From Pseudeuparius sepicola (Eukaryota; Arthropoda; Insecta; Coleoptera; Anthribidae): a stretch of DNA of 64,000 bases. Each line of letters begins with the position of its first letter. Positions within the stretch are counted from its first letter, which is position 1. The position numbers were made by a program, and so were the translations under genes. Under the pieces are notes generated by a model. The model was not told where the DNA came from, ran no database searches, and worked only from the letters and a program-made list of their open reading frames with translations. Location: positions 20,998,501 through 21,062,500 of the forward strand of contig OY987301.1 of NCBI GenBank assembly GCA_963920635.1. The letters are read 5' to 3'. Below, one piece after another: positions 29,691-59,288 of the stretch.

Positions 29691-29691
29691 G

Positions 29692-30732: not shown

Positions 30733-33330
30733 GGAGTATGTAGATTTTATTTTACCCCCCCCCCCCCGGCTCAGGGGCCCTCGGCTTAGCCTTTGATACA
30801 GGGCCCACTCAAAGCTAGCTACGCCACTGCCTGCCAGTGAGTAAGTCCATATCAGTTAAGGTGGCTGGTGTGCCACAACAGGAAACGCACAGAAAATGTA
30901 TCATCTTAGACAGTGACTTTGTTGAGAAAGATCCAATAATTTAAATTGTTTCTATTTGTTGGTTGGCATTTTGTAAAGAAATAAATTACTTTTGTGTTTA
31001 TTAATATTTTTTCAATGATTCCAGAGCACTCCTGACCAGTATAAAGTTTAATAAGAATTCAGAATTTTGAGATGGCTCAGAGAAAAATACCCTGTATATT
31101 TTTGTAGTAAATCTTTTCACACCAACATTTTGTGTGGTCCTGTTGACCATTCCACTGTTTTGAAGGGATTCCATGGCACATTTGACTCGCCAGATGTCTT
31201 TAAAATTCCTATTTTGCTCAACAACTATATGACACAATACAGAATGAAACTCCCTGTATATATTTTGTTCAAATTTGGTATATGGAGGTTTTGGGGTGTT
31301 TTGATTAACGCTGTGGGGTCAGATTTTAAATAAAAAAAACGCTAAATGGTTTTCGTGAAAATCGGGGGTATACAAAAATTGCAGCCGGCCCTGGATTTGC
31401 ATGGCAGAAAAATCAAAAGAAGCGATTTTTGAAGGCCTTTCAAACAAAAATATGTTTAGGCGATTTTCTCCAAAAATGAAGAATTTACGGATTTGTACAG
31501 TTTTAAAGTTGGACAAAAAAATGCAGGTCTTCTGCGGACTGTGTGGGTGCGCGTGCACACGCACTGCCTGCATAAATTAACCGAAAAGTTAAATTCTCGA
31601 TTCAATTAAAATTTCCTTCCTGCATAACATCTTATCGCCCAAGTCATTCTGTCGCTATCCTGGATCCCGTGCGTAAACTTTAACTTTGTATGGATTTTTA
31701 TATAGGTATGATTAGCATGGATATAGTGTCATAGTGTGAGTTTGTATACTTATGACTGTTCCAAAGGTGGACATGATGTACCTAAATTCGGTGGAAAACT
31801 GGAAAATGTTACATAATAAGGTACTATACGAACACACATTTCCAATAACTTTTTCTGATATTCTCAGGGCAACCCCGAATTATCCTAATTTTTAATTTTA
31901 AATGTCATATTTGACAGGCATGGGACTGTGACGTCACGACTTTCTTAGGCGCAATAGTGTGGCAAAAACATGCACCAATATAGCCCAAAATCAGATTTCC
32001 AAAAAATCTATTATAATAATAAATTTACCGTTTGGTGCAAACTTTATCAATAGCAGTGCGGGTGACCGACAGAATATACAGTGTGGTCATTTAAGTGTGC
32101 AACATATGGGACTTTTTCCTTCGTTCAGAATTAAAACAGGACAAAAAACGGAATATTCTGGAATACTGGTTAAAGGAATTTGTGCAGGTAAAAAAATAAG
32201 ATTTTATTATTTTGCAAAAAATGATTTTTGGCGATAACTTTTTTATAGACTCTTGTATACAAAATCCGATGACACCCTTGAATTCCTCTTAATTTTTACT
32301 ACAAATTCATTTTTTGAATTGAGCGTAATAGTGGAAAGAAACATTATCGATTAACAAAACAATTCATATAGGTATATTCGCCGATTTTGGGCATTATAGA
32401 AATATCTAGATATTTTTTTATCTTTTGCCCCACAAAAATTTTAGATTTTTCCATAGCTGTATGTCAAATTGAGGTTTTTGTATTAGTACCATAGTACCTA
32501 TGATTTATTGTCAAATTAAAGGAAAATGATGGCGCGGAGTATTTTTTAAATTGGAAACTGAATGTCTGGTTGCCCTCAATAACAAAAAATACGAGTATTA
32601 AACATTGCGTAGGAAAATAGTAACCGCATGTTGCTCCTTACGAGCCGAAGGGAGCGGTAATCGTTAGGAGGCCATGATTAAAAAATATCTATATGTATAA
32701 TTAGGTATACTATAGGTACCTACATAATTACAAAAAAATAATATTATTATGCAGAGAACATATAATTTTATATAAAATGAATATATATAGGGATCAAAAA
32801 ATAGTTTTTGCTGTAAAACCACAGAAAACTCCAAAACTTTAGAGAGGTATTGTCAGTTTCTTAGTTTCTTGGGAGCATGATTTTTTATTAGGATATAGGA
32901 GCTAGGTAAGGTAACCTCCTATAGATTCTGAATTCGACTTAAAGACGTCTTTTATATAGTTTCTTGCTGATCTTTTCACTGGGTATACCTGGGCAATTTG
33001 GAAGAACTACGGATTTTCTAAATCATATTCCAAAAATCAAAAATTGATATCTTTCTCTCAAGGTTTGCAATGTTTAAACGGAGATTATTATTTCCTCTGC
33101 AGGGATGATGTTTTAATTTAAATACATCTGGTCGGAAAATAGCAATAATAGCTTTAGGGTAAGTTTCATTTCAAAACCACTCTCATCAGGAAAGTCAACC
33201 TGCAAAATATTATTAAATTCACCTACAAATAATGTTCCTGGCATTTTCTTCAAAATGTTGATATTTTAACAGCAAATGAAATTATTCTTTATTATGAGAC
33301 ATGGTTTATATATTTTTATGAAGCATCAAC

Positions 33331-33361
33331 CAATGACGTCAAATAGGTTCTGACGTCATTG
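33331..33361. mobile_element. Tiny palindrome with perfect GCATCAAC duplication
   Basis: CAATGACGTCA, a short loop and TGACGTCATTG form a 31-bp insert. GCATCAAC lies directly on both sides (33323-33330 and 33362-33369). Confidence 0.8.
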
Positions 33362-34149
33362 GCATCAACACATTTTTTCGTAGCTCACGTAGGTACACTA
33401 CATAAAACAGCCGCTTGTAGCGAAGATAAACGTAAATAAAATAATGACTCGTGGAATTTAGTTGCCGAGGTCTCTATTTTTTTAAAATCGAAAAATATCT
33501 AAAAAGGAAATCGCCCGTCCATGAGCCGACCGGTGCACCGTGTCTTGACCTGAACGATCACTCTACCTTGATCAAACACGTACCTACCATGACCATGAGC
33601 AACTTACATAGAAATAATATTGATGTTCAAACAGACCAAAATACTATTATACTGAAAGATTGCATTGTTATAGATTATAGATAACGATTCCGCAATGAGT
33701 CTGAAACGTTAAATGATACTTTATTGGACAGGTTGTAAATATCTGGCCATATTTTACGGGTGGTGAACGACTCTGACGTTTGGTTCTTTTACATCTCACC
33801 AAGGCCAACTGAAAAAAAAAGAGTACCTACTATAATGGCTCACATTAGTGCCGCATTTTGAGCTTTTAATAACTAGTTTGAGGCTTTTTAATGTCGATTT
33901 CAAAAAAAATAACTACCAATCCAGGCCAGGGACTCTATAGTTAGGTACCTTCATTTGTAGTGCCAAAGCCAAATTATTCAAATAATCAACCTACATAATA
34001 CATTTTAAGAAATTTGCCCTTCAGAACAAGAGATGTTTTGATTTAGTGTGGCCCAATAACATTTTTTTGCATTAAATCATATATTACTAATAGATCCAAA
34101 GATCAATATGTAGCGTCATGCCCGAAATTATCTCCTAAACACTAATACC

Positions 34150-34181
34150 ACAGACCTATATAGCTTCGATATAGGTCTGTG
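34150..34181. mobile_element. Tiny palindrome with perfect CTAATACC duplication
   Basis: CAGACCTATAT, the loop AGCTTCG and ATATAGGTCTG form the insert. CTAATACC flanks it exactly (34142-34149 and 34182-34189). Confidence 0.85.
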
Positions 34182-34739
34182 CTAATACCTATGCACCCAG
34201 GTTAAAATTTCAAGGGCCAAAGTCAAGGCAATATATAAAATGTTATTAACTTATCACTACTTAAAAATATACACTTTGGATACTTTAAAACTCAAGGCAA
34301 TATATAAAATGTTATCAACTTATCACTATTTAAAAATAGGCCTTTGAATACTTAATAATTATTGTTATTATGTTAGGTACTGATTAACTGCGCTATCATT
34401 TTTGGTATACCTACTTCAGACTGTATTAAAAAACTAAAAAAATAAGTAGGTACTGAATATTTTTATAACTACTGGGCCCTTTTGAAGCAAATACAGGCAG
34501 TATGTGAAAATAGTGTATTAACTTACCCACAAAATATTAAACATATATAAAAGAAACTATTTAGAGTCTAGATAATTATTTGTACGAGATAAGAATGTGT
34601 AAGAACTATAATAACCCAACTCAGTTTTTTTATTAATACATATTAAACCTCTTTAAAAATATACAAAAAAAAATCGGTACAGATGATAACAAACATTGGT
34701 CTAAAAGTAGTTAATAAAACAATTAAAATATACAACAAT

Positions 34740-35548
34740 TTACTTCGATTTTTTCTTATCCTGTGAGACTTGCTGTTGCCTTCTCTTGTTGGCAATGTAG
34801 ATTGTCCAGAAGAACCCAATTAAATTGATTACAAGAACTCTTAACTGAAAGATGGTAACTAAACAAAGGAGTACAAATGAAAATATCAAGAACTTACCAT
34901 GGGTGGCACAACACTCAAATTCAACAGGTGTAGCAATGTTAAGTATTTCCAACTCGAAGTCAAGACTGTCCAGTACAGTGCTTGCAATTGTTTAATAGCT
35001 GTTCTGTGGTCTTTACCCTCAAGCCGAGCTAAGGTATACAATGTAAATGCTTGGTAAAGGGGTGAATATATCAGTCTTTCGAATATGAGCTTTTTGATAA
35101 CCACAAAAGAAGCTTCTTCTGGCACCCAGTGTTCTAGCACTGAATAGAAATAGTGTGGAATTGTACCGCCAAAAAGAAGACTAGAAATATAAAAAAAAAT
35201 GAGTATTAAATTATCATGTAACCTTTGGCCCCTATTATTTAATATACCTACAATACTATAGCAATAATATCAATATCACACCTACCCAAATGCAGAATAT
35301 GCAATCAAACTTTGGATGTCCAGTACTTTTCCTCCGGCGGCAATCCTCTGGGATGCATAGTTACCAGCAGTTGCTATCACACAACTTAAATCAGAATATA
35401 TAATTTATGAAATAAAAATTTACCAACAACTTAAAAAAATACTTTAAAAATGTCCTTACCAGCTAATTGCTTTGGTTCTTATTGGATGTTCGTACAACTG
35501 ACCGAAATAAAAGGTCATAGCATTAATAAGTGGCTTTGAAAGAATCAT
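34740..35548 (-). CDS. PXMP2: Peroxisomal membrane protein 2-like (Mpv17/PMP22 family)
   Basis: Four minus-strand exons join in phase: 35548-35460, 35384-35286, 35180-34898 and 34844-34740, giving 191 residues. All introns are GT-AG. The protein starts MILSKPLINAMTFYFGQLYE, contains RTKAISCCVIATAGNYASQR and the strongly family-like SVLEHWVPEEASFVV and ARLEGKDHRTA, and ends with the helix RVLVINLIGFFWTIYIANK and a Lys-rich tail. Length and four hydrophobic segments fit Mpv17/PXMP2 proteins; EHWVP and LEGKD point to PXMP2 rather than Mpv17. In animals this protein forms channels in the peroxisomal membrane. The Met was chosen as the only one upstream of the conserved part. A possible poly(A) signal lies at 34629-34634 (AATAAA on the minus strand). 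Confidence 0.88.
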
Positions 35549-35739
35549 TTTTTGTTGATTTTAATCGTAGCGTAATGGTAAAGTGCGGTTCAACTAAAAG
35601 TGATAATAAATCGCAATATCATATATGAGATATAAAAAATATTATAAAGATGAAAGATTATAAAGCACTCACAAAAAAATAAAATTTGCACAGAAAAAAC
35701 AAACTGGTTAGGTAGACGGGTAATTATTCACTTCGTCAA

Positions 35740-35870
35740 GTCATCGGGTTTGTTCCAACAGCAGTTCGAAACCGATTCTCGGCGAACTGATTGGTTGAAA
35801 ACAGTTCTGGAATCACTTTTCTTTTCTGCAATCTGATTCGCTAGAACAGGTTCAGAACTGTGTGTTGGAT
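35740..35870. repeat. Dispersed repeat also found inverted at 60150-60275
   Basis: CAGAACTGTTTTCAACCAAT and related text (GATTCGCTAGAACAGG, GAACTGATTGGTTGAAAAC) occur here and, as the reverse complement, in a rotatin intron at about 60150-60275. It lies just upstream of the PXMP2-like gene. No coding is seen. Confidence 0.65.
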
Positions 35871-35871
35871 C

Positions 35872-35899
35872 CACTGAACTATATACGGAGAGTTCAGTG
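35872..35899. mobile_element. Tiny palindrome with perfect GTTGGATC duplication
   Basis: CACTGAACTATATACGGAG then AGTTCAGTG makes a 28-bp insert. GTTGGATC flanks it exactly (35864-35871 and 35900-35907). Its arm CACTGAACT is shared with the insert at 44619. Confidence 0.85.
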
Positions 35900-36159
35900 G
35901 TTGGATCAAAGCTTATATTATGTTCCCGTTTCGTTTATGAATTTTGGATTTATTCCTTTACTCAATGATTAGACGCATTTGCAAACGCATCATGTCGAGT
36001 TGCTGATGCTTTTATTCAACATGAGTTGAAAATACTAATATAATAGGGTCTGCTAATACCTTTGTATTTTATTTTTTATCAAAAAAGAATTGGCCGTTTA
36101 ACAGCGACAATCGTCGTAAAAGACGGTCTTCTTTAGTTCAAGTGGTTCAGGTGGTTCAG

Positions 36160-38270
36160 GTCACTTAATTTCAAGAGAAATTCGGAACGAACCTTCGAAA
36201 TTTACTGGCATGGTCCAAGATCCGTAAAACGATTCTTGAGCATGGTCCAACGGCTCTCGTAAAATAAACTGGACCGCGATTGGGCCCCTACTCCCTCCAC
36301 CAATTTTTAGCCATCCGGCAGAGGGCGCTGGAGCCCACCTGGATAGCCGCCATATTGTGTGCATTCTAGGGGAAAAGAGAAATTTGTGGTGGCAACAGAA
36401 AATGACATTTGACAACGGCCAACCACGGCCCTCGTACATTTGACAGCCAATGACGTGTGCGCCCAATATGGCCGACATAGGTATATATGTGTATAATATA
36501 TAGGTGGGACAAAAATTTAGAAACTTTTTCGAGTTATTATGCTTAGCCGAGCGGCTTGTGGTATTTTCCTGGCGGCCAAAACTAAAATTTTTGAGGATAA
36601 TAATCCATCGGTAAGTAATTTTGCAATTTAAATTAACTTTTGAGGCCATGCACTAAAATGGCATAGGCGTTTGTTTAGGTACCCACTTCTTCATAATTGA
36701 ATATTTCTGCGTCGATTAGTTTTTCGAAACAACTCAAAAGTGCGCGCCACAGTAAAAACGGAATCGTCATCCCGCCATACTTATACAGAGACTGTCCCGG
36801 ACCAAATTTGCTCCTGGGCAGTTCTTTTTTGGCTGTATGAGAGATATTACAGTGCCGTGGAGTGTGCCTTTTGCTAGTATCTTTAAATAAAGAATCCCAG
36901 GAAGGAGTAACAGCTGCTTGTGCTTACCACACACTATATACTTTAAATATTACTCTGTATTTCTGAATTGATTTTCCAGACTACACCTCTGACTTCTATT
37001 CCACCAATAGGTATGGGTCAAGGTCATTGAATTTGCGGATGATTTCTCAAGAGTAAGTTATCGCGCCTTCTCAATCAACGGTTATCGTTATCCTGCTGGC
37101 CTGCTGGTTCAGCTGGTTGTTTTATATGCTTTGTTTCTGTTATTGGTAAAGCACTGCGGCAAAACACTAGTTGCAGAATTTTTTTTATAAAATAAAAGCA
37201 TGCGAGTATTTTCGTTTGAAATGAAGTCCATGACTAGTATAATATATGGCTAGTGTAGTGTACCTAAGAGATAACTAGGTATAGAACGCATTAGATTTTT
37301 CAGTTTCTGTATAGTGGACCAATTGGTTCGCTTTGGGGCTATAAACAAAATTTTCTATTTTCATTCTTGCATACGTTACAAAATACTGTTCCAAAATATA
37401 ATATCCAGAATTCTAGCTTCTTCAACTGATTGAACAGATCATCCCTTAATTCCAAAATAGGTTTATTCTTCTGCAATTCACATAATGGTCTGTGCATATG
37501 ATTTTCTTCATGAGCATGGAAATGTGACATTTCCATGAAATGTCATGTTAGGTATCACAAACAAATCTACCTATACTAAAAGCTTTGTTAATATGACAAA
37601 ACTGCGAAATATTGAACGCAGAGAGAATTCGTAAACGTAAAAAGGGCGGAAATGGTAATAAAGCATCGAATTGATAAGTACAATGGAAGTCGCACAGGTA
37701 CCACTTTCATTGTTGTTTGGGGCAGCCAACTCTAGAGAGAGATAGGTTTTAAATGGCAATAAGTAAGACAAGGACGCCTAATGAACGTGTCAGCTGATTC
37801 AGGCAAAGGAGGTATATAGTGATGTTGCATATTAATGAGATAATTTAATGGGCATGTTCCGTAATTCTCTTTATTGTATGATCTGTATTCCGAAATTCGG
37901 GGCTTGTTTGTAGGAATGAGAATTTTTCTATATAACCACAATTATGTAAATATTGCACAGAAAAAAGTAGTGAATTGATTAAGAAAACACCTACATGGCA
38001 ATTGTATGTACCTGGAAGTAAATTGAGACAAATAAAATACAAAATACAAAATAAAAGTTTATTTTAAAATAAAGGCGACAAAATATCTAGGATAAGGTAT
38101 ACATTTTCAACTTTAATTACTTATCTTAATTGATTTATTAATTTTAAAATTAAATTTAATAGGAAAAGCATGTAAGACAGGTAGCTTTTACATATTTTTA
38201 TATATATTTTATATTGTTTAGGCATCTAACAAAAAGAATTACAAATAATTACCTTATTAAAGGGACCAGA
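36160..38270. other. Mosaic of dispersed repeats without an intact gene
   Basis: 36480-36800 is a reverse-strand family-B fragment. 36800-37140 matches, reversed, the two sides of the palindrome insertion near 43.4-44.4 kb, so it is an uninterrupted relative of that site. 37320-37560 matches 60740-60990 in reverse; its open frame 37339-37536 is broken in the other copy, so it is repeat-derived. At 37515-37537 CATGGAAATG and CATTTCCATG form a small hairpin not seen in the other copy. Confidence 0.5.
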
Positions 38271-38279
38271 ACCTCAAGA

Positions 38280-38655
38280 TTAATTCCATATTTGACTACG
38301 AAGAGCTAGGTTCATTAGCACAATATTTTGCCAGTTGTTCCCTTCATAGGGACTTGGAAAATAAAAAACTGTAGTAATTACATACTTTTTAAGTTTGCGC
38401 TGCCCAAAATTCTCTATGAAATAATTGCTCTCAATAAATTGTTGACTACAAATGCAAGTAAATACTTGGTAGACTACAAAATTTTTCCTTTTTATTGCTG
38501 CAATCCACTTGTCTCTAATATCACCTTATCTCTTGGAAAACTGCAAAGTTATTAGCATAAGACTTACGAATGAAAAGAAACCCCACTATTCTTATTCTTT
38601 CCGCCCCGTTTGGTAGGTACATCCAAATACACAACAGTAGTTGGCCCTCTTTTTT
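38280..38655 (-). pseudogene. Broken THAP zinc-finger gene, two exons
   Basis: Exon 1 (about 38655-38568) reads YCCVFGCTYQT, then after a frame change KNKNSGVSFHS, ending in phase 2 at the donor GTAAGTC. Exon 2 (38540-38280) begins FPRDKV, then after another frame change reads RDKWIAAIKRKNF, CICSQQF and LKKYVITTVFYFPSPYEGN before TAA. This follows the THAP plan (Cys-x-Cys near the start, FP, Trp, then ICSxHF), but the final zinc-binding His is Gln here. Two frame changes and no clear start codon indicate a pseudogene. A second THAP first exon at 44761-44976 has its donor at the same place. Confidence 0.65.
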
Positions 38656-39222
38656 GTAATTTACAACTTAAACAGAAAGAATATAGCCACATAGCTAAAT
38701 CAAATTTTCTCTCCGATCTAAAACTATAATATTAAACCAAACACCAACTAAGAAAACTCAACGCCGTTTTATTCGAAATTGCCACCACGACACGAACTCA
38801 AATCAAATATAAATAATACAATAATTACTCCTATTCGTATTGGGACTTGGGACTTTGGGACAGAAGGAAAATTAAAATGACGTTTGACAACGGAACTCGT
38901 TTGAAGCACAGGACACAAAATTATAAAGTTAGGACAAACACCTATTTTGTGTTATGTGGTTTTTGCCGGAATCAGCTGATTTATTTACTATTTCACTTAC
39001 TCAAGTTTGGCTGCCAGTTTCTCTCTCTACACTCCTTCCATCTACTTGTCATTTCAATGTAATAAAGCTGAATATTTAAAATAGGTATGGGACATATTCA
39101 AAACGTCAGAAACTGACATATCTGTAACCACAGAATGCCCTTTTATGTTATAACCTATAATAAGTCCGCAAACAATAATGAAATATGATGTTATGCTCGA
39201 ATCTTTAATATAGTGTCAGTCC

Positions 39223-39242
39223 CCATATATAAATTATATATG
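39223..39242. mobile_element. Tiny palindrome with near-perfect 8-bp duplication
   Basis: CCATATATAAATTATATATG is nearly self-complementary. Flanks are GTCAGTCC (39215-39222) and GTCGGTCC (39243-39250), one difference. The AT content makes this example weaker than the others. Confidence 0.55.
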
Positions 39243-39310
39243 GTCGGTCCAGACGGTCTGTGGGACTGTGGTGGAACCAGAGCCATATAAAAAAACAGAA
39301 ATTAGGATCT

Positions 39311-39910
39311 TCCTTTGAATAAAGAACCCCGCAGGAATGAGGAAGGATCAAATTTGAGCGTAACGCTAGACCGGGACAGTCTCTGCATATGGCGGGATGC
39401 CGTTCCCGGTTTCACAGTGGTGTGCACCTTTGAGTGGTTTCAACAAACTACTCGAGGCAGAAATGTTTATTTTTCGTAAAATCAGTACCTACAATACAGG
39501 CCATTATAAGGCACATTTATGTCTTTAAGTTTAGGAATCCTTGATAATACGGCAATTCTAATTTTAAATTTCTAATTATAAAGAAGTAGGTACCTACACA
39601 AACGCCTATGACACTTTGGTGCATGGCCTCAAAAGTCAATTTAAATTACAAAATTACTTACCGATAGATTATTATCTTCAAACATTTAGTTTTGTAGGCC
39701 AGGAAAGAGCCACAAGCCACACAGCTAAGCATAAAAGTATCGAAACGCACCACATACTGCCACCTATCAATATATTATATATCAAAATATTGTGTTAAAA
39801 CTTTGTTTCTAGTGTAGGCACTGCCTACACCGGGCGATTTCCGTCTCACGTATTTTATAATATTTATAGAGCTTTGACTCCTTCCTGGACTTTTTTATTT
39901 ATAGGCCCAT
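39311..39910 (+). mobile_element. Family-B repeat, copy 2
   Basis: It starts CTTTGAATAAAGAACCCC and ends near CTCCTTCCTGGACTTTTTTA, and shares TGCATATGGCGGGATG and AACGCCTATG with the copy at 16797-17387. The right end is decayed and no target duplication is clear. Confidence 0.7.
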
Positions 39911-39919
39911 ACATACCAC

Positions 39920-41000: not shown

Positions 41001-41172
41001 ATATCTGAAATTTATTCACAATAAAATTTGTACCTACCTATAATATATAATTAAAAGAAAAACATATTCAACTTTCATTAATTTTACACAATCAGATTGC
41101 AGTCCCCTTCCATTCCCTATTTCCTTAAATCTAAAACTATATACCTATAATAATATCGAATAATTTATCTAT

Positions 41173-41433
41173 TTATGAAAGTTTTTCTTTATTATTATCT
41201 GTATTATTTGATATTTCGGTGACATTTTTCTGATCTACAACTTTTTCCTTCTTATTCCAAGCACATTCACATGAAAATGAACATGCCTCTTTATTTTCTT
41301 CACCAGATTTTTTTAATTTCCTATTTTCCCAGGCCTTCCATGGATCCCAAATCGATAGTAAAATTGGTTGAATATATCTGTGGAAAATGAATAGCAGCAA
41401 GGGAATTACAAAACAGGGAACACAGCCTGCCAT
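41173..41433 (-). CDS. C18orf32/UPF0729 family small protein
   Basis: An uninterrupted 86-residue frame begins MAGCVPCFVIPLLLFIFHRY and continues IQPILLSIWDPWKAW, followed by a polar Lys/Glu/Asn-rich tail. The Cys-Val/Ile-Pro-Cys-x-Val-Ile-Pro start, single hydrophobic segment and short length match the UPF0729 (human C18orf32) family. Human members associate with the ER and lipid droplets; the biochemical role is not settled. An acceptor just upstream (boundary 41442/41443) and a donor at 41530/41529 suggest an 85- to 90-nt intron in the 5' untranslated region. A possible poly(A) signal lies at 41011-41016. Confidence 0.85.
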   Translation of the reverse strand: MAGCVPCFVIPLLLFIFHRYIQPILLSIWDPWKAWENRKLKKSGEENKEACSFSCECAWNKKEKVVDQKNVTEISNNTDNNKEKLS

Positions 41434-41539: not shown

Positions 41540-43430
41540 GCTGGAAGCCACAAAATCAAAATATTGTTGCAGGTTGCAGCATCGAACTGACAAACGAATG
41601 TCAGTTAGGTACAGAACAGAGTGAACAAACTGGACCTCTAAAGCTGTTTTCGATAATTTACACTAAATTTTTTGTCAATGTTAACACCATTGCATGTGAA
41701 CTGCCCGGTGCAGTACAATTGGTGCGCCCTCCATATGCTCCGGGTTTAACCACAGTTTATTTGTTTCACGTAAGTTTCTTACATTGCTTTGGCTATTTTC
41801 TCTCTTGAAATGTTTCGATATTTTTTTTTCGACTTTCGGTAACTGCAAGGTTATTATGATGAGGAGGTATGGGCATTGTCGCCATATTTAGAAGCTACCC
41901 CCACCATTTTTTACTTCTATTACATTTCAATATTTCAAAAACAGAGGCGTATGAAATGTGTAGAGTGTACCTACCTACTACTATTTTTTATTTTCCCTGC
42001 TTTCTTTACGCAGCTAGTTACTGCATAATTGGTACCACCAGGCATAGCTTTTTCTTTGCAATAGGTACTGATAGATAATATAACAAAGAGAAAATCGAAT
42101 AAAATCAAGTAAAACACGCGGCACGCTACTGACTCCACTATGAACTAAAAATGTCTAGGGATTTACTAAATCAATCACGAACTTGAAGGTGGTGGGCGGC
42201 CAAGAACGTTAAAGTTTAACGTTCTTGATGGGCGGCATTGAGGTAGTATGGGGGGAGGCGCCATAACATTACTTTGTCGCATATAGCAAACGGGTTCAGT
42301 GTGGTTAAGTCTGTGATCAATATGGCTGACACACCAGGGTCTGATTAAACAGTATTCCTAGTAAAATTATAAAAAACCTACGAAAGAAAATATGGGGTTA
42401 TTTTGAATCGAAGGAAGAAACACCCTGTAGGCAATCCTTGAAAATACATACCTAGAGTAGTTATAAAGGTAATATTTTTCTTTTCATAAAGTACCAAAGT
42501 AGATATTATAAATTATATTGATACGGCTCTGTCTATTGTTTACATTACCTGTGAAATGTAATTCCTGTGAATTTCTTTTTGTCCACTTTGGAATTGCTAC
42601 TGCAACAACGTACAGCACATGACATATTTATTTCCAGAGGTCAATAGCTCGCAATAACAAGGAAAACTGCACTTTTAGCCACTTTTAATGCACTTTTAGC
42701 ACTGAGTCAACAAATTGACGTTGGTCTGGTAATCTCTGACGTAGTTGAACCCGTTTTGGGTCAGGTGACAGCTCTCCCCTCCATACTCCCTCAATGGTGG
42801 GCGGCTACTTTTGGTTTTGTTTAAGAGGGGGGGACTGTCCTAACCTTCCTATAAAGTAACTTTGGTTTACACCAAGGTTAGTTTGGTTTACACTACAAAA
42901 TGCAGAAATGTATTGCTGCTTCTTTCAAAATTGTTTCCCTGGTCGTCTAGGCAGAAACAATACAATAATATAGATTGGTTTCGTTTCCTTTCGACTTTTT
43001 GCAAACGCCCGAAAATTCAGCTTACCCAATACGCCATGTTCCCGGTTTTTCGCCACGCGCAAATGTCAAATGAACTGTCAACGTCAGTGGTAGGAGGTGT
43101 AGGTAGAAATATATAGGTTAGGTAGTAGTAGCAGACTTGACCAGACTCAGCTGTTCTTTCCTTGGTTATTATTCTATGAGCTGAGCATATAAAACAACCA
43201 GCAGTAATTCTCCCCATGGCGAGAACATTCTGCGCACCTGTTCGCGCAGCCGCCGTTGGGGAATAGACCAGCTCATATAAAACAACCAGCAGTACAACTA
43301 ACTCTTGAGAAATCTTCGGCAAATTCAATGACCTTGAGCCATAATGGGGGAATAGAAGTCAGAGGTGTAGTCGGGAAAATCAATTCAGAAATACAGAGTA
43401 GTCCTATTAGTAAACTATATTATATAGTGT
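41540..43430. other. Spacer with dispersed repeats
   Basis: No gene is recognised; the frame at 41869-42078 has no motif. ATATAAAACAACCAGCAGTA occurs twice (about 43187 and 43274), a local duplication. 43140-43430 matches 36960-37140 in reverse. Confidence 0.4.
42201..42228. mobile_element. Tiny palindrome with perfect TGGGCGGC duplication
   Basis: CAAGAACGTTAAA, G, then TTTAACGTTCTTG plus one A form the insert. TGGGCGGC flanks it exactly (42193-42200 and 42229-42236). Confidence 0.8.
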
Positions 43431-43491
43431 TAATGTAGAAATGTAAAAGAAATTATAATGTCTTTATTATCCTATAAGAACCTTTTTATGT

Positions 43492-43537
43492 GGATTACCG
43501 GTTTCGCAAACAACAACCGTTTTGCATCATCAGATCC
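43492..43537 (-). ncRNA. Hammerhead-ribozyme-like motif, near-complete core
   Basis: Read on the minus strand from 43537: GGAU (stem I), CUGAUGA, one extra U, GCAAAAC-loop-GUUUGC (stem II with one bulged A), GAAA, then ACC/GGU as a very short self-complementary stem III, A, and AUCC closing stem I. Predicted self-cleavage would fall between 43496 and 43495. This is the type I layout with minimal stem III known from Penelope-like elements. The extra U before stem II departs from the usual core, so activity is uncertain. Confidence 0.65.
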
Positions 43538-44215
43538 TTCAAAACTACAATTAACGAAAAACACTAAAGTACCACGTCTATATAAAAGGTTAAAAAACAG
43601 CATAAAACTTACATTTAAGATAAAAATCAGAGAGTTGTCAATCCATGGGGTGAGGGTGTACATTCTCCGGTTACTTTATGTCAAAAACGTCAAACAGAAT
43701 CAAAAATATTAATTACACCACAATTATGTAGATTCCAAGGTGGTTAGTATTATCTCAACTCAACCATATAGTTATTTTTTATTTGTTTAAATATTGTAGA
43801 AAATTAACCTCAAATTTTTATTTTCATCTATTTGGTTACATAAAACCATTATAATGGTCCAATATACATTCAGGTCAACTGGTTTTATGTAACCAAGTAG
43901 ATGAAAATAAAAAATTTGAGGTTAATTTTCTACAATATTTAAACAAATAAAAAATACAACTATATGGTTGAATTGAGATAATACTAACCACCTTAGAATC
44001 TACATAATTGTGGTGTAATTAATATTTTTGATTCTGTTTGACGTTTTTGACATAAAGTAACCGGAGAATGTACACCCTCACCCCATGGATTGACAACTCT
44101 CTGATTTTTATCTTAAATGTAAGTTTTATGCTGTTTTTTAACCTTTTATATAGAGGTGGTACTTTAGTGTTATTAAAGTTGTTAACGTATGTTTTTCGTT
44201 AATTGTAGTTTCGAA

Positions 44216-44261
44216 GGATCTGATGATGCAAAACGGTTGTTTTTTGCCAAACCGGTAATCC
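44216..44261 (+). ncRNA. Hammerhead-like motif, damaged core
   Basis: This is the inverted partner of the motif at 43492-43537. GGAT, CTGATGA, GCAAAA/TTTTGC and ACCGGT with ATCC are all kept. However, the core G of GAAA is C (base 44248, reading CAAA). In known hammerheads that G is needed for catalysis, so this copy is expected to be inactive. Confidence 0.6.
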
Positions 44262-44339
44262 ACATAAAAAGGTTTTTATAGGATAATAAAGACATTATAA
44301 TTTCTTTTACATTTCTACATTAATATCTTCCTATAATGG

Positions 44340-44500: not shown

Positions 44501-44618
44501 CCCAATCGCCCCGACACTGCATCCATTTGACAGAATCTATTCCCAAATGGCGGCTGCGTGAACAGGTGCGCGGAATTTTCCCGCCATGGAGACTACTACT
44601 ACTACTACTGGGCGCATC

Positions 44619-44641
44619 CACTGAACTATAATAGTTCAGTG
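44619..44641. mobile_element. Tiny palindrome with perfect GGCGCATC duplication
   Basis: CACTGAACTAT, A, then ATAGTTCAGTG is a 23-bp palindrome. GGCGCATC flanks it exactly (44611-44618 and 44642-44649). It shares the arm CACTGAACTAT with the insert at 35872. Confidence 0.85.
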
Positions 44642-44760
44642 GGCGCATCCTATTTCCAGGCAAAAGTAATGTCCGGCATATTGTCCCCAGTTTGACGTTT
44701 GCAGTTTGTTTTCAGCGATAGTTGTATTTTCAGCAGAGAAATGGTCAGTGTTTTTGGAAA

Positions 44761-44976: not shown

Positions 44977-45129
44977 GTAAGTTTAGTAAAGTTGTAGTAA
45001 AGTTGGTTTAATATGGCAGCCACTTTTATTAGGCAGTTCGCGCAGCTTGTAACCTGTTCTCCCTACTCCATTTCTCTGGTCGCAAGCGACGGTGCCGCTC
45101 GCACATGACTCAGGTTCCACCGTCCAAGG

Positions 45130-45155
45130 CATAGAGATCGCAGATGATCTCTATG
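45130..45155. mobile_element. Tiny palindrome beside a second one
   Basis: CATAGAGATC, GCAGAT, GATCTCTATG. Flanks are GTCCAAGG (45122-45129) and GTCCAACC (45156-45163), six of eight identical. The next insert begins at 45163. Confidence 0.7.
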
Positions 45156-45162
45156 GTCCAAC

Positions 45163-45196
45163 CACAGAAAATAGTGAAACTAGTATATTTTCTGTG
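45163..45196. mobile_element. Tiny palindrome, CACAGAAAATA type, copy 1
   Basis: CACAGAAAATA, a short loop and TATTTTCTGTG. GTCCAAC flanks it on both sides (45156-45162 and 45197-45203), extendable to 8 bp if the outermost G is counted. The same arm occurs at 58794. Confidence 0.75.
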
Positions 45197-45655
45197 GTCC
45201 AACGTCCAATGATCAATAAATTACAGAGGGCTGTTCGGATTCGGATAATTAACCGATTCAAAAAAAATTGGTGACACTGGAGTACTGGAGAACGGACAGT
45301 CAGTGGTTTTGTTTAAAGTAAACAGTTTTAAAATACTAAAAATAAAAAGCAAAAATTAAAAATGAAGTAATAAGAATATTTATAATTTTCTGTTGGCGAT
45401 GTGGAAACGAAAACATTTCCTGAATTATTTTTGACTGGTGATTTATAGTTGATACTTTGCAGTTGAGATATTTATTAATAAGGAACCACACAGGAAACGG
45501 ATTGTTTAGGTGTATTGTTCTAAATATATTCTAATATTTTGATAAAACAAGGAACAGGATTTATTAATAGCCTGTATTATACTTAATGCCCTTATTTTCT
45601 TGGCATCAATGAAGTCTTTGTTGTATTCACTCAGTACACTTTCTTATAATTGAAG

Positions 45656-49736: not shown

Positions 49737-49739
49737 ATG

Positions 49740-51130
49740 TAAACTTAAGTAGGTACATAATGTATTATGTATACCTACAACATATATTGTCTACTCTCAA
49801 AGTAGGTAATATTAAATTATTAATTAATATGTTTAGTGATAAAGTTAAATGCATATAATTAATGATTGATTTTTCTCGGATTTCAGATTCTATATACTTA
49901 TTTTGTTTACCAAAGTGGAAAAGTACTATTTTTATAATATTATGTTTTAGATGTGTCGTTCTCGTATTTTTAGATAGCTATTTGGAATTATACTCTGTTG
50001 CATCACTGATACTCTGTTGTATCACTGTATTTTAAATGTCTCTAAATCTTGATACTGCCTTTTAGGTTAATTAATAATTTAGTCAATGTTCGCATTATTT
50101 CCAGTACCTATTTTATTTTAGTCGAGTAACTAAATTTTTTCGTCTGAGAGTTTCTTAAAAAGGATATTTAAAAGAACAATCAATCATTCCACATTTTTTG
50201 TATTATAAATCACTTCTTTCAAATTCAAAATCTAAGATATATTTAATTAAGTCTAGAATCATTTAGACCATAATTACAATAATTATATATACTGGCAAAA
50301 ATGTGGATATTGGTACGGGAAGGCTAGACATTTTAATTTTTTCATAAGTACCTATTTTAAGTTGTAATAAGGTTTGTGATACATAAAAATAAATTAATTT
50401 CTCGCTCAATAGTTAACATAGATATTTGTTTACGGAAACTAATATAAATAATTTAGCATTTTTTGTCTTATAAAAAGTTCAGAGTAGAAATGTAAGAATG
50501 TTTTTTAATGGTGTTTGATCACTATAAGTTGTCGCTACGTACTATTTACTTAAGAAAGTATACATATTTGGAAAATGGGAACATGCATTTTTCGTATTTA
50601 TTTAATTTGTTCAATCCCATTTTTCCCAATTTTTTATCTACTCCTACATGGATATTTTGTCATATTCCTTCCTCCATCGACGGTCACAGTCTACAGTTAT
50701 TACAGTTAACTGAACAGATATGATCCTATATATCCACCTAAGGTAAGTATGGTTTGAAATCAATCGCAGTTACGTTGACGTGTTTGCAAAATCAACATAG
50801 TTTCATAAATGTTTAAACTTAACCCCTTTTCAACGATACGGCACTGGCTGTGTAAAAACGATCTTTCTCTACCTTTCTACTCGGAGGCAGTTTTCTGAAC
50901 GCCGCCCTTGTATGTTTACATTTCTGCTGTCTCTTTCACAAAATATCCAAGTTAGGTTTATGATCCTAACCTAACTTTCTTGTTTTGTGGTGGAAATGTG
51001 AGGATGTTTTGATTTGAATTTTTCAAAATGAACGTCTGTCATTATTATCTCTGATGTTGTTATTATCAGGTCCAGGTCTATCAAAATAAGCAAATAATTG
51101 AGACTTTGGAGAAGAACCATAATTTAAAAT
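49740..51130. other. Intergenic region between F-box and rotatin genes
   Basis: It is AT-rich with no coding signal; the frame at 50508-50723 has no motif. AAGTTAGGTT and AACCTAACTT at about 50949-50977 form a small inverted repeat. The rotatin promoter should lie near its right end, but no TATA or initiator element can be defended. Confidence 0.4.
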
Positions 51131-51131
51131 A

Positions 51132-54100
51132 ATGACCGATAAATATATTTCAGCGAATCACATCGAAAAACTTGGTAGGTAGCTGAACAGAGTAATTGAA
51201 AAATAAAACTATACATTTGTGTTTTAAATATAATTACTGGCATTTTTTAGGACATCCAATTACAGAAATACGGCAGAGAGCTTTATTCAACATTGTTTCA
51301 AAAATAGAGAACGGTATACCTTTTGACAACGATCTAGCTCGCACAAAAGAGCTTTGCATCAAACTGTTCCATTGGTTTCTTTTTGAACCATGCTCACATG
51401 AAAATATTGTGTTTTCCTTGCTCCAATGTCTTATAAAGTCCGAAATAGGTCAGACTGTAATAAATCATTATGGAAAACAATTTGTACTAACCGAACTGGA
51501 TAAAATCGAGCGCTACATCGAACCGAAATATTATCATTATTTGAGAGAAATGCGTGCCATATTAAAATCACAAAAAGAAGTAGTAGTGCCTCCATTAGAA
51601 AGTTCTGTTCCTCTTAGTTATAGATCTGATGAGTCTTATAAGTATACTCCTTGTGTAGGAAGTACAGCTAGTGTTATAGAAGGTTACATCCAGAAAGAAC
51701 ATTCCGAAGATCAGCGTGATGGGTAAGAAATAGTATTTTTTTACTACTAACCTGAGTAATCACCATTATTTACCTCATTCCTCTAATGAGAAGTAATATT
51801 TCTCTCCCTAGGTAAATAATGATAATAAAAAAATACCTACCTAGGTAAATAATGAAAAATTTTCTATATGACATTTAAAAATTAGTTTCATTTTATCAGC
51901 TTGACAACTGAACTCAAATCTAATCAAATATGTAAAATATGGCAATATTTTAATGTTAGTAGTAAAAAAAATTCTCTATACACTTTGGTTGAGCAGATCA
52001 TTACTTACCTCGCACATTATATCCTCCGGCGCTACCCGCCTCAGGATATAAAAATGCTCGGTATAGATAATGGCTCACTTCTCAACCTTAGTGTATAATA
52101 TACTATTTTATGGGTAATTTTTTTTACTAGGTTATTTTTGAGCACTGCAAATATTTTTTCCCTCTAACGGATTATTCCCAATAATTGAGGGTTAAAACTG
52201 AGTTGGGTTTTTTCCTTGGATTGATTTTTGTTTTTCAAACGATTAGGCAGAATCATATCTGGTTTAAATGATTAAATGGTTAGGTAAGTATATAAAAATC
52301 TTAAAATTTATCTTTTAGGAAAATTTGCCTCCAAACTACATTCTTATTGACATTTTAAATTTCCATTAAATCTTTTTAATCTATAAATAAGTATTGCTTT
52401 TTTTTCTTACATTATATAGTGGGACCCATTAGGTCACCCTATAAAACTGATGAACTGCATTTTTTGAGCAAAAATTACATATTTTATACAAAATCCAAGG
52501 CAGCTATGCCAGTTTCTAGGAGCAAAATTGTAATAAACCACTAACGATCTTTTTGGTACAAATCTGTGCACGCCACTGACAAAATTTAGTAGTTTTTGTG
52601 ATGGAATTTTAATTTTTTGTTTTCATTTGTTCTTTATAAGCATAAGGCCAATATGTCCAATAAGTATCACCAAGTTGTTAAGAGTTTAATTTTATTTGTT
52701 TTTCATGGCTAACTGAATTTTTGAAAATAAATTAATGTCTAATGTGAATTTTTAATTTTTCTTCAAAATCGTCATTACTTGAAATTTTTTGGTAAAATTT
52801 GGTACAGGCCCATTTTGAGGGTGCCGAATCCAATGGCGTGCACAGTTTTTTTTCTAAAAAATCACCAATGTGATTTAATAAAATTTTGATCCTAGAAACT
52901 GGCATAGTACACTGTATGTAAGATCTTATTCACACATGTGATGCGACATGTATCTAAATAATAAAAACAGCAATATTCCAAAAGTGCAAAGATGACTGAA
53001 AGACCCAATTAAAAATTAAATATATAAGTTCCATTTCTTTATAAGCATATTCCTTGTTAAAATGAACTTATACCCGTTGGTGTAATAAATAACATCATGC
53101 AACTCCAACAAAGATTGATTATTGGATGACGAAAGGTTGACACAATTTGATTTGTCAGCACTTAAGTTTGGAAGGCTGCATGCTACAAAATTTTCTTTTT
53201 CTTGTTGTTTTCCAAGCAGTAGTGGCAGTAATGTTTTTGACCTCGAATTACTTCATTCTATCAACCTCACAAACTCAGATAATTGCACTTTGTCCGTCAA
53301 AAATATTAAGAGATAAGATCTCACTTACCTCCATTTGAAATACATAAATGATATGAAACAAAACTATAGTGATAGTGACATGCCACAGCTGTCTAGTCTT
53401 TGACTTATACCTGGTTCACCATTTAAAACCCTACAAAAATTGTAAAATCGTCTTACAAGTAAGCTTTTGTAAGTCGTGCATTTTTTATGAATATTTTTCC
53501 AGTACGAGAAAATTGGGATTAAAAATTACATTATTATTGTTTACCTAGTTTGATCTTTTCTCATTTTTCAAAACTATCAGTGGGAGGAGATGCACAAGAT
53601 GCACTTCCCTTCCTATAGTAAAGCAGATAGGAAACGACATTGAAACAGTCCTTTACATACCTATAGGCATTTCAATTTTTTTTATGTCTGAAGATATTTC
53701 AGAAAACAAGAAAGCCCAAATATTTACAAGGAAGAAGCCAATGGTGAAAGCCAATCAACGTCACTTTTGGGAGAACATAACTTTATTGACTGTCTTCCAA
53801 ACTATACTTTAAAATTTCAACCATTAATTGAATCAGATAGACATGTTTTGGAATCTATTGAAAACTCATTAGGGAATGTTGAATCTTCTGCAATAATGCA
53901 CTCTTGTGAATTCTTCGTAAATGTCTTGCTACATGATTTTCCTGCAGAAATATTTTTGCAGCGGCCGAAAATTATTTATGTAAGTAAGCGAGTATCTTTT
54001 ATACATTAAGTATCATACTATTTTTGGAAATATCTGCTACTATAATATACTCGCAAATTAAGTTTGCTTATTTTGTTTTAGAAATTTCAAAACCTAATAG

Positions 54101-56772
54101 CAACAAATATATCTTCAAAAATTACAAATACGATATTGGACTGTCTGTGCCATTTTACCAGAAGTCTCCAAGTTCGAATAAATTATAGCAACGATCCAAC
54201 AATGATAAACTCGAAATCAGAGGTAAGGACTCACTCTGTTTTTAAGGGAATACTTAATGCATTTATAACTACTCTTTCAGATTTTATCAAAATTACATTG
54301 GAACTCATGTTCACCATCTCATTCTGAAGAAAATTCAGACAGGATAGAAATGTTTGAAAGTAAAGAGTGTGTAAGAACATTAATACAAAATCAGTTGTCC
54401 ACTCCAAATTACTGCACTTTATTTTTAATAACATTGTTAAAAATTATGAATGGCAAAGAACCGTTAACAGAAAATTATACAAAATTAAATAAGGTACATT
54501 TATTTCTTGATATTCTATTCTGCTGAAAAAGTGTGTCATCTAGTATTTTTGTAGATTGGATACAATGCATCTCTTAAGTTATTAACAGAACTACAGAAAC
54601 TATTAAGTTTGTCAATGAAAAAACAAATTCATAGCACACGTCAAACACCAAGGACCTCAGAGGTAACAAAACTTTTTAATGAAGTTCTTCTGGAATATGG
54701 TGATACGTTAGAATATTTTCGAGTAGAATCTTCAATATTGGAAAAAAGTTTACACCTACGAGCTATTTATTTACACATATTGCATGACATTACGAATATA
54801 CTTGAAACTTTTGTTCCTATTGATATGGCAAAAGCCGTATTGCCTAGGAATTTGAAAAGTGCACTAGCAACTAGTTTAGTTGATCTAAGTTTGAACAGAT
54901 TGTATCCAAAAACATATGATGTTCTTATCAAATATGTAGAGGTAAATAATTTTAGAATATATTTTCTTTTTAAACTGACAAGATCTTGTAGAGTTTTAGT
55001 TATGAAGATGAAGATCTGCGCAAGTATAAACTAGTAAAAAATATATGTAATGGAATTTCGGCAACAATTAAGCTGTTAAAAGATTACAAATCTATAAAAT
55101 TCATTGAATGTCTTGAATTAATGCAAACAGCATTACCCAGTTTTTCACTTCACTTGAGCATCGAATTGGTTCTTTTGTTTGTTAACATTTGTTCGGATCG
55201 CCTTGTAAATTATTTTGAAGATTCAAATATCACATTGAAAGTAGAAATACTTATACTCAATTTGTTGTCGCATTATTCAGCCAGCATCCAAGAAGAAATG
55301 TACAAAATTTGCCAAAAGAAAATAATTGACTATGTTAGTACAAAAAATGGATCTGCAAGATCAGCAATAATGGGTTCGGAGATATTATTTGTGTTGAGTA
55401 CAAAGGTGTTTAATGAAATAGCTTTGTTTGGTTTGACTTCTAATAACACTGTGGTAAGTTGTAACAATTTCTACTCGTATAATATTATCTCAGTTCTGTA
55501 CACATTAGTTTATTGAATGGGAATTTTTAGTTAAAAAAATATCCTGTGAATGTTCTAAGGCTAAGGTACCTAGTCTTGAAGGCTCTTATTTTATGCATTG
55601 GGTGCCTCTGCTTCTTAGACTACTTAAACCATTTGTAGAATAATAGATGCACCATTTAACAAATTTTAGATACAAAACTGCGCAGAGGATATTTTAATTT
55701 ATATTTTAAAATGTAAAGACCTAGTAGCTGAAGTGGTGTGGAACAAAATTATTCAATGCCTCATTCCATCTCTTCCCATAATATGTTGCCATGCAAATAG
55801 AACTACTTCATTGGGAAGGTGCATTATAAATTTTATGGATCCAGATACAGCAAACTTCAACCTCATTCCAAGTATTGTTGTAATAAAATGCAACATTCAA
55901 TTTCTTTTTTCCAAAGACTCTTATTTAAGGTAAGCTAAATTTTATTTTTATTTAGAAATATCCTAGTTTTTTTTTAGGGAAGAAGGGTTCTCACGTTTGT
56001 GCTGGTTTATGGCAAATCAGGATAATTCGAGAGATTTATTACCTAGATTGAATACTTTGTATGACAAAAGTTTAGCAAACGCTTGCCAGATATCACAAAC
56101 CATTGATCTTAATAAACTTAGACACACAGAACATTTTTATCAGGTAGGTACCTAACAAATTAGTTATTTTTCTTAACTGTTTCAATAAATTGAATTACTT
56201 TTTATCAGCCGAGCAGCCTTCAACAAGTTTTGGAAGTGCTAAAATCAAAAAATGTAGAGCCAGTAATTAGAAGATCTGCCTTAAATCAAATAAGTGTTAT
56301 GATGGAAGACAGTATACTCCACCAAATATTTTTCGACTTAAATGGCGTTGATCTATTATTAGACATTATGAGATCTGCTTTAATAGAACGTGATTATGGA
56401 AATTATCCAGATTCTATAATCCCCATTGTTTCGATATTCAAAAACATGTGCCTTTACAATTCTACTCTTCGAGAAGATCTTAGTAAGGATATAAATGTGT
56501 TTTATCATATTTTGAGAGGTAATTTTTGTTTTGTTTTTTAAATAGAGTATTTAGAAATATTCTTGCAGGATTATTTTTATTTTTTACGGAAGAAAGAATG
56601 AAACAAGAAGTGACAATGATGCTGTTTTTGCTTATTTTTAAAGATTTTCTGAGAGGATCTCCAACAAAATCTGATTTTTCAATACCAGGACTGATTTTTA
56701 AGAATATCAATGTTCCATTTACTTGTATAGCACATTTACAAAGTAGCGTATATGCAACTGAGGATTTAAAGG
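51132..56772 (+). CDS. RTTN: Rotatin (Ana3), exons 1-11
   Basis: Exons: 51132-51174, 51251-51722, 53703-53979, 54082-54222, 54281-54493, 54555-54941, 54992-55453, 55670-55929, 55978-56143, 56209-56518, 56569-56772. All have GT-AG borders and consistent phases. The N-terminus KLGHPITEIRQRALFNIVSK is the armadillo-like start typical of rotatin (vertebrate form: LGH..AEIRERAL...I), followed by helical-repeat sequence throughout. Rotatin, Drosophila Ana3, is a centriole/basal-body protein needed for centriole integrity and cilia. The start ATG has no upstream in-frame alternative nearby. Exon 11 ends at AAGG/GTATTT in phase 1, matching exon 12. Reading on past that donor would enter a transposon at 56796 and stop at 56888. 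Confidence 0.85.
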
Positions 56773-56795
56773 GTATTTTTGAAATAAAATTAACA

Positions 56796-58071
56796 TACAG
56801 TGAACACGCGAAGGTTGGAGTAAATTCAATAAAATCTTTATTGGCGAGAGAAAAAAGTCGCTTGGACACGTCAACCTTAAAAATATAATGCTCATATTTT
56901 GATATAAATGTGTCATATGATGTCATCGGTGTCGCACATATGACATCATCGTCATTTTTTAAATTGTAAATTCCACTTTAGATAGCGACATTTTAAAGAT
57001 CTCATTCTTCTTATTTTTGGTATAGGTTACATAACACTTTTTTGAGAATTTTTACAATTTTTTATTTACTTTGTTATATGTATTTGTCAATTTATTTAAT
57101 TCTAACAAGAACAGTAGTTAAAGTAAATACACCAACAAAAGGTTGCGAATAGTGTAAATAAAACTTAAGAAACGCTCCAATAACAAATAAGTTTTTTCGC
57201 TAATTAATTTTTTTTAAGTAGTTGGTAGGCACTTTGAATATCTACTTTCATTACCTTTTCTCATTTGCAACCATTTGTTGGCATATTTACTTTAACTGTT
57301 CTTGTTAGAATTGAGAATAAATTGACAAATGCGTAAGAAAGTAAATCAATTGTAAAAATAATAGTTATTTATGTACCAAGGCACTGAAGTTCAACTTTTT
57401 ATTACTCATGTGGAATTTAGTTGCCGAGGCCTCTGGCTGAGGCAAATAAACCACATGAGTCATAAAAAGAACTTCAGTGCCGAGGTACATATTATATTTT
57501 TTTTGAAATCGGAAAAAATGTTTTATTAGGCAAGAAAATAATCATATGGGATCACCCGTCCATGAACCAACTGCGCGCGGCGTTGCTTGACTTTGACGAT
57601 CGCTCTACCTAGGTCAAGTATCATAAGACCTTCGAACAGAAAAACCAAACTGCTGCTTGTTGTGCAGCCTCCATAACAAATCTATTGATATTCAAACGTA
57701 CTAAAATATTTATACTGAAAGATTGCGGTGCTATAGGTAACAATTTCGCAATATGTACGAAAAGGCCGGGACACCCCACTGCCGATTTCAAGAAAAAAAT
57801 ATTTTTTTCGCGAAAAAAGAAAGTTATATGTAACCTATATGAAAAATCATCGTTTTGTATGTAGAAAAATGAGATGTTTCAAATGGCTCTATCAAAAGTG
57901 GGGCTTACAATTTAGAAAATGACAATGAAATCATATCTGCAACTTCACATGACGCATTTATATTCAAAAATTCGCGCATTACAAAATTAAGGTTGACGTG
58001 TCCGAACGATTTTTTTTCTTTGCCCATAGAGATTTTATTGAATTTGTTCCAACCTTCGTGTGCTCACTGTA
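56796..58071. mobile_element. TA-flanked element in rotatin intron 11
   Basis: The left end TACAGTGAACACGCGAAGG and the right end CCTTCGTGTGCTCACTGTA are inverted; arms match for roughly 150 bp, including TTGGACACGTCAACCTTA. TA is present at both tips. Inside are a foldback at 57085-57333 (TTCTAACAAGAACAGT against ACTGTTCTTGTTAGAA) and the repeat shared with 33425-33700. It begins only 24 bp after the exon 11 donor. Confidence 0.8.
57375..57490. repeat. Inverted repeat within the intronic element
   Basis: GGCACTGAAGTTC and ACTCATGTGG on the left pair with CCACATGAGT and GAACTTCAGTGCC on the right, around GTTGCCGAGGCCTCTGGCTG. The loop text is shared with 33465. Confidence 0.75.
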
Positions 58072-58793
58072 TAGATATATATAATATGGTTGTGCTAGGG
58101 TTCCTGTATTAGAAGAGTTGATACAGGTAGATTTTCGTATATAGATTCCTCAACAAATCACATCAGAATGTTGACATAATATTAAAAACCATTGTAGATG
58201 TCTTTTTGGGTTTTAATTTTTAATTGAAGTTAGCAGACCAATTAGGACTTTGAATGAAAGCCACTCATGTATGAACGGTTCTGCAGTGTCCAGGCTTTTT
58301 AATATGTCTCACAGAATTGAGGCCGAAATGCATTATGGACTTCGTCTGCTGAACTAGTTCCATACAAAACACATGGACTGTATAATCCATTTCAAATCAC
58401 AAAGAGTATTTTACACAAGTTCTTCACGCAAAAATTAATAACGCTTTAACTTACACAGAGAAAAAAAATCGCAAAATGATACATTTATGTAAAGAGATTT
58501 GGTGACAGGAGCCTACTTGGCAGTAATCAAAGATGAAAAATCGTGGCCAAATCATGGAATAATTATTCTATCAGTTACTTCGTTTGTATTTTAGCGAATA
58601 TTAAAATCAGTACTTTAATATGGGCAATCGTATACATACAAGGTATTTATAGGTATTTGCTTATTTTTGCAACTGGAATAAAATTATGAAGACGATAGAA
58701 ATCAAATAAATTACCAAGAAAATTGTAAATACTTACAGGTTGTATGCAATTACTATTTTCTCGGCATCTTGGAAAAGACATGAATATGTGAGC

Positions 58794-58838
58794 CACAGAA
58801 AATATACGCGTATATACGCGTAGCGTATATTTTCTGTG
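58794..58838. mobile_element. Tiny palindrome, CACAGAAAATA type, copy 2
   Basis: CACAGAAAATATACGC, a short centre, then GCGTATATTTTCTGTG, 45 bp in all. ATGTGAGC flanks it exactly (58786-58793 and 58839-58846). It lies in rotatin intron 11. Confidence 0.85.
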
Positions 58839-59288
58839 ATGTGAGCTATCGCCTGGAATCTAGCCAGAAATCGATTGAAGGCGAAAAACATGCAGTATTG
58901 TTTGCGAAGCTACAATGCTGCAAACATCGCCACTGTGGCACCTATACTCTATGTAAAATACGTCTTTGAGTGCTGAAGTTCAATACTCAAAGGATACATT
59001 TAGAACAAATTGTACCTACTTCGATAGCATTCAACATAAGTAATGAAACTGTATTTCCCTTAGTTGAACCACATTAGTTTTTAACCCAAAAAAACAATTT
59101 TGGCATTATTTGTCACAAATTTCTAACCAACAAATTATAATTGCACGGTATTTACCTGGATACGATTGAAACCTTTTGCCAGTAAAGGACAGGTGATATA
59201 TTATATATCCTGGACGACACTTCTAGTATACAAGGACTCTAGGTAGGTCTAAGACCTAGTCATAAGACTAACAATTACAATTTTTTAG

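Follow-up and report, generated by a model that had tools for sequence, protein, structure and literature searches.

The locus and its hairpin inserts

The window, a stretch of 64,000 nt from the beetle Pseudeuparius sepicola, contains reading frames that match rotatin and Mpv17/PMP22, together with a series of repetitive features (Table 1). A fragment near its left edge matches a transposase-type domain, two longer elements look hAT-like by eye, and a group of large nested inverted repeats is probably a fold-back element. Short hairpin inserts, named scars here after the reading argued below, are flanked by direct repeats of 7 or 8 bp and are grouped by their arms into families A to F; families C, D, E and F are known from the window alone. 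A sequence-only reading of this DNA had listed nine such inserts, all of which were located where it had placed them. As originally cut, six have perfect 8-bp repeats (33331, 34150, 35872, 42201, 44619 and 58794), and the repeats of the other three (39223, 45130 and 45163) are imperfect or 7 bp long. That all lie in the right half is correct for the window and does not extend to the genome, where A and B hairpins are spread across the assembly.

Table 1. Positions of hairpin inserts and other features in the window
Feature	Position	Strand	Description
DDE_1 fragment	51..458	+	match to DDE_1 (PF03184)
Longer elements	29132..30829 and 9939..13908		8-bp duplications (CCTGCCAG, AACACCCG); 14-nt ends matching 13/14
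Scar C	33323..33369	.	insert 33331-33361, arm CAATGACGTCA, 8-bp repeat GCATCAAC
Scar D	34142..34189	.	insert 34149-34181, arm CACAGACCTATAT, 7-bp repeat CTAATAC (8 bp with the first C counted to the repeat); family hairpin motif CACAGACCTA
Repeat	35747..35878		right end interrupted by the scar at 35872; diverged copy at 60147-60269 (-)
Scar B	35864..35907	.	insert 35872-35899, terminal repeat B kept over 18 nt (left) and 9 nt (right), 8-bp repeat GTTGGATC
Weak candidate scar	36208..36247	.	insert 36216-36239, CAAGA arms, repeat GCATGGTC
Weak scar	39215..39250	.	insert 39223-39242, AT-rich arms, repeat GTCAGTCC / GTCGGTCC (one mismatch)
Scar E	42193..42236	.	insert 42201-42228, arm CAAGAACGTTAAA plus trailing A, 8-bp repeat TGGGCGGC
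Nested inverted repeats	43430..44323		large, 97% complementary
Scar B	44611..44649	.	insert 44619-44641, terminal repeat B kept over 12 + 11 nt, blunt join, 8-bp repeat GGCGCATC
Scar F	45122..45163	.	insert 45130-45155, arm CATAGAGATC, repeat GTCCAAGG / GTCCAACC (two mismatches); next scar (A2) adjoins
Scars F and A2	45122..45203		two families sharing one target copy; left copy GTCCAAGG instead of GTCCAACC
Scar A2	45156..45203	.	insert 45163-45196, right arm CACAGAAAATATAC, 7-bp repeat GTCCAAC; placed at the target copy of scar F
Scar A1	58786..58846	.	insert 58794-58838, 16-nt arms plus filler repeating ATATACGC, 8-bp repeat ATGTGAGC
Empty-site paralogue	60147..60269	(-)	diverged copy of the left flank of 35872, without hairpin, single target copy

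The earlier claim that the hairpins exceed chance is borne out by strict scans. Exact arms of at least 8 with an exact 8-bp flanking repeat occur at four window sites (33331, 35872, 44619 and 58794), and an exact 7-bp repeat adds two (34149 and 45163), against 0 sites in 20 dinucleotide shuffles of the window per strict setting. When the arms were relaxed to 6 and the repeat kept at 8 bp, the mean over the shuffles was 0.05 sites, with a maximum of 1. A laxer scan, tolerating one arm mismatch and repeats at 7/8, gave 0–2 sites in six Markov sequences, and its additions in the window are only AT-rich or TTTAAAT-repeat stretches. Taken singly, the inserts at 39223, with its AT-rich arms, and at 45130 are weaker. 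Counting every 8-bp direct repeat with a short spacer is unspecific (178 versus a random mean of 64, mostly local repeats). An Rfam search returned nothing at gathering scores. Scans of IMG/VR with two 16-mers returned 7 and 12 stretches, which were taken for chance.

Two arm types recur in the window. The sites with arm CACTGAACT (family B) have their first 12 nt in common and then diverge; those with arm CACAGAAAATA (family A) share 14 nt, in the right arm at 45163 and the arms at 58794, and diverge thereafter. Common arms with differing middles point to independent joins of the same two ends, not to copies of one small element. The filler at 58794 contains an 8-nt copy from the flank, and the remaining sites have at most 7 nt, so no general claim of flank-templated filler is made.

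Hairpins of families A and B across the assembly

The genome search that the sequence-only reading had proposed covered the whole assembly (769 Mb, 16 contigs) and used both recurrent arm types. It returned 25 B-arm and 996 A-arm hairpins, with 0 in the reversed-pattern control of each. Perfect 8-bp duplications flank 22 of the 25 B hairpins (21 directly, plus L065 around a longer insert of 46 bp), one more has a duplication at 7/8, and two are without a clear duplication (L061, 6/8; L058, 3/8). Two more B scars (L081 and L084), both diverged and both with perfect repeats, were read by eye. For family A, the first 41 of the 996 hairpins listed, in 40 regions, comprise 16 with perfect 8-bp duplications, four at 7/8, ten with perfect 7-bp duplications and 11 with none; 26/41 are perfect at 8 or 7 bp. 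Five A hairpins with the flank gttataac (L112, L119, L120, L131 and L134) seem to derive from a single site that was copied as part of another repeat, and the perfect 8-bp sites drop from 16 to 13 when these copies are counted once. Arms of the type CACAGAAAATATACTACGAA (subfamily A2) are found at many of the 7-bp A sites. By its arm (right arm CACAGAAAATATACTA, 7-bp repeat) the window site 45163 belongs to A2, and 58794, with 8 bp, to A1.

The targets are biased: among 39 duplications listed by hand, with 7-bp and unmatched sites left out, position 1 is G in 25 and position 8 is C in 31. At C5:50872493-50872603 (L063), three B scars lie in tandem, each between copies of the same 8-bp target GTACGGAG, which looks like repeated re-entry into a target copy. 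Among 30 B places, two pairs lie within 150 kb of each other, where 0.17 are expected; one of these pairs is the window itself. Apart from B scars, about 216 kb of genomic loci, many of them picked for B scars or P loci and some overlapping, contain two strict palindromes flanked by 8-bp repeats (L051 and L027) and no others. The window is richer in scars than this set, but it was picked for its hairpins.

One insertion can be compared with an empty site. A diverged paralogue of the flank of 35872, on the opposite strand of the window, is without the hairpin and without one copy of its repeat. A single target copy and no hairpin in the paralogue indicate that 35872 gained the insertion together with the duplication. 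A possible second paralogue, of 39223 at ~61221, scored 51, not above shuffles (maximum 52 in 100), and the search for empty sites at the remaining window positions gave no convincing paralogue. An origin by local template-switch mutation or as chance palindromes deserves next to no credence: a few AT-rich candidates are weak (39223 and part of the list from the laxer scan), but for the main sites this origin is refuted by the shuffles at strict settings, the empty reversed-pattern controls, the arms common to unlinked sites and the paralogue of 35872 with its one target copy. Template switching without gain of the flanking repeat was also what the sequence-only reading had named as fatal to its view, and at 35872 the gain came with the target duplication.

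Full-length elements with the same ends

In both A and B there are full elements with 8-bp duplications whose terminal repeats, 31 bp long, have the scar arms as their outer portion. The earlier argument that recurring arm types mean transposition is right, and the longer elements sharing these arms, for which it had proposed to look, exist. For family B, the pattern CACTGAACTATATACGGAC (at most one mismatch) has 17 matches in the genome, several of which are scars. A B element on C8 is 2478 bp long, with 31-bp terminal repeats and the perfect duplication GGCCTGAG; another, on C2, measures 634 bp and has the perfect 8-bp duplication GCTGGTAT. At L086 a right end (29/31) lies 1.3 kb off, and at L087 a left end is seen. 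For family A, the element end is CACAGAAAATATACGCTACGCGG. Matches to the 23-bp A1 end number 516 + 488 in the genome; among 100 matches listed, many pair head to head at 0.6–10 kb and a few are scars with 24-nt arms. Two A1 copies of 5686 bp (99.86% identical) have a 31-bp terminal repeat and the perfect duplications GTTCTGAT and GAAGAAAC.

Judged from their sequences, the three full copies compared (one B, two A1) look non-autonomous. The B copy of 2478 bp contains no frame of 100 codons; a tblastn comparison of 13 P-type frames of the same genome gave nothing significant against it (one 14-residue match, E 0.5) or against the two A1 copies. These A1 copies (L137 and L138) have no frame above 103 codons and carry many internal tandem repeats. 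An autonomous partner with both A or both B ends was not found among 30 P loci of ~3.2 kb. Since no P-type transposase with A or B ends was found, we do not count the source elements as established members of the P superfamily. A lead is the P-type fragment at L042, which has a B-like end ~195 nt upstream of its domain and no partner end.

The interiors of the hairpins bear on whether these are mobile units in their own right. There are 20 distinct interiors among 23 B hairpins and 34 among 50 A hairpins (the first 50 of 996 listed), and an interior common to the copies, the mark of MITEs, is not seen for A or B hairpins. The sequence-only reading had suggested that the inserts may be the smallest mobilised hAT-type ends. 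Tiny elements of ~20–45 bp, consisting of hAT or P ends only and transposing as such, would agree with the perfect target duplications at many sites and with the recurrence of arms at unrelated sites, but we regard them as very improbable: the idea is strained by the interior diversity and by the full-length elements with the same ends, the inserts that recur with the gttataac flank seem to trace back to a single site within a repeat, and the 31-bp B insert found identically at two different targets (L020 and L057) can also come from end joining. Scars of failed repair after excision, which the earlier reading had put second, fit the later data best, and its interpretation as a whole is partly supported.

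Arm limits and joins

Where the arms stop was measured against the true ends. In the hairpins retrieved, by search patterns that could admit one full-length arm beside a short one but not two full arms, at most 19–20 of 31 nt are kept in B (46 arms, 23 scars) and at most 24 of 31 nt in A (100 arms, from the first 50 of 996 listed hairpins). Each of the four B readings of 20 nt has one base common to the other arm. Joins in both families fall into microhomology, blunt and filler classes. In A, for the first 50 of 996 listed, these number 17, 9 and 24, with copies of one site retained and the filler class inflated because A2 members were scored against A1.

P-type transposases and known excision products

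P-type transposases are present in the genome. The PF12017 profile gave 150 scored matches out of 849 candidates; two P-type frames each contain four P-transposase Pfam domains, and one frame matches PDB 6p5a, a P transposase. One pair of coding copies, each 4597 bp long and 99.98% identical to the other, shares the ends CACAGACTAAACAGACTTGCCG and is flanked by the duplications GACATAAC and GTAAGAAC; two other coding elements, of 5.6 and 6.2 kb, have ends CAGAGAAATGG or CAGAGATATGG and duplications GGACTGGC and GGTTGAAA. The P-type coding elements start with CACAGA or CAGAGA, and the 8-bp duplications around them are perfect. In a third P-type family, with ends CTTAGACAAGG, one of two copies has the duplication GTTCACCC and the other (L024) has none. 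The P-coding families considered for scars were CACAGACTAAA and CAGAGAAATG; the genome search found 0 hairpins of CACAGACTAAA, a family with only four copies at its score among the PF12017 matches listed.

P transposase makes a staggered cut, at the junction for the 3′ end of the element and 17 bp within the 31-bp repeat for the other strand (PMC7776569), and chromosome ends after P excision have 17-nt overhangs (PMC2895639). In Drosophila melanogaster, the P{wa} excision junctions tabulated there (PMC2895639 Table 1) read target copy, stub, join, inverted stub and target copy. Such junctions and the scars described here have in common the 8-bp target copies on both sides, the facing stubs of the repeat, and joins by microhomology, blunt ends or filler. 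They differ in that the Drosophila junctions have a 17-nt tail and were induced in the laboratory, whereas the present scars have arms of up to 19–20 and 24 nt, belong to other families and accumulated naturally. The scars thus accord with the Drosophila scheme if the stubs are taken to be longer. The P superfamily, which includes P, 1360, Galileo and zebrafish THAP9-type elements, is described as having 7- or 8-bp duplications and palindromic G...C targets, with 31-bp repeats in P (PMC7776569, PMC4168063); the Galileo target is GTANTAC (PMC4168063). A and B resemble this superfamily in having terminal repeats of 31 bp, the length found in P, duplications of 7 or 8 bp and G...C targets. They depart from it in that the copies read look non-autonomous and the repeats start with CACWGA.

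With hAT elements the scars share 8-bp duplications and a CANNG start. Footprints of hAT elements keep altered target bases and are not known to retain 10–24 nt of both element ends. Stubs of the terminal repeats lying between both target copies are the outcome described for P elements (PMC2895639), which argues against hAT. Scars left by a non-P superfamily that also cuts inside its terminal repeats, for instance an uncharacterised hAT-like group, are unlikely, though less so than tiny mobile elements. Such a source would suit the A and B elements read, which carry no recognisable transposase, the occurrence of CANNG ends and 8-bp duplications in hAT as well, and the want of hairpins in the P-coding family CACAGACTAAA. 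Set against it are the 31-bp repeats, the 7- or 8-bp G...C targets and the internal cutting, all of which fit P, and the P-coding elements of this genome, which begin likewise with CACAGA or CAGAGA.

Probable excision scars of transposons with P-like ends

Families A and B display duplications at scars and at intact elements, 31-bp repeats, limits to the arms and diversity of joins. In our judgement the hairpins are, with high probability, excision scars of transposons with P-like ends, produced by P-type excision. The transposase is predicted to cut ~19–24 nt inside the 31-bp terminal inverted repeats; both repeat stubs would remain on the chromosome between the two 8-bp (or 7-bp) target copies and would then be joined. 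As the stubs have the same sequence in opposite orientation, joining would give a near-perfect palindrome, and the varied interiors would be explained by trimming, by microhomology and by filler copied in as the stubs were joined. The enzyme making the cuts at the predicted positions would be a P-type transposase, the end-joining route may be polymerase-theta-like, and families C to F presumably work as A and B.

Among the titles listed from an open-access library with few subscription papers, none describes a survey of natural P-type excision scars across a genome, and a string search of the literature for five arms found one unrelated paper. In excerpts of PMC7764229, on P elements in Helicoverpa armigera, footprints are not mentioned. 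Scars of this kind are known from Drosophila laboratory work; as far as these searches show, what is new is that they abound in a natural genome, have longer stubs and occur in tandem. We incline, with some reserve, to regard this genome as a natural archive of P-type excision, with about a thousand scars in one family, families known almost only from their scars, cuts ~19 and ~24 nt inside the ends and not 17, and re-entry into the same target copy building tandem scars (the three on C5, and 45130/45163).

Most knowledge of excision scars comes from laboratory crosses. If the reading as excision scars is true, hundreds of scars from known ends would provide a natural sample of germ-line end joining, including microhomology and templated filler, and would allow past excision events to be counted for families now almost lost. 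They would also make it possible to test whether the 17-nt stagger, an unusual feature of P transposase, differs among families. Each independent scar would represent one germ-line end-joining event, and the genome a natural record of DNA break repair in an animal.
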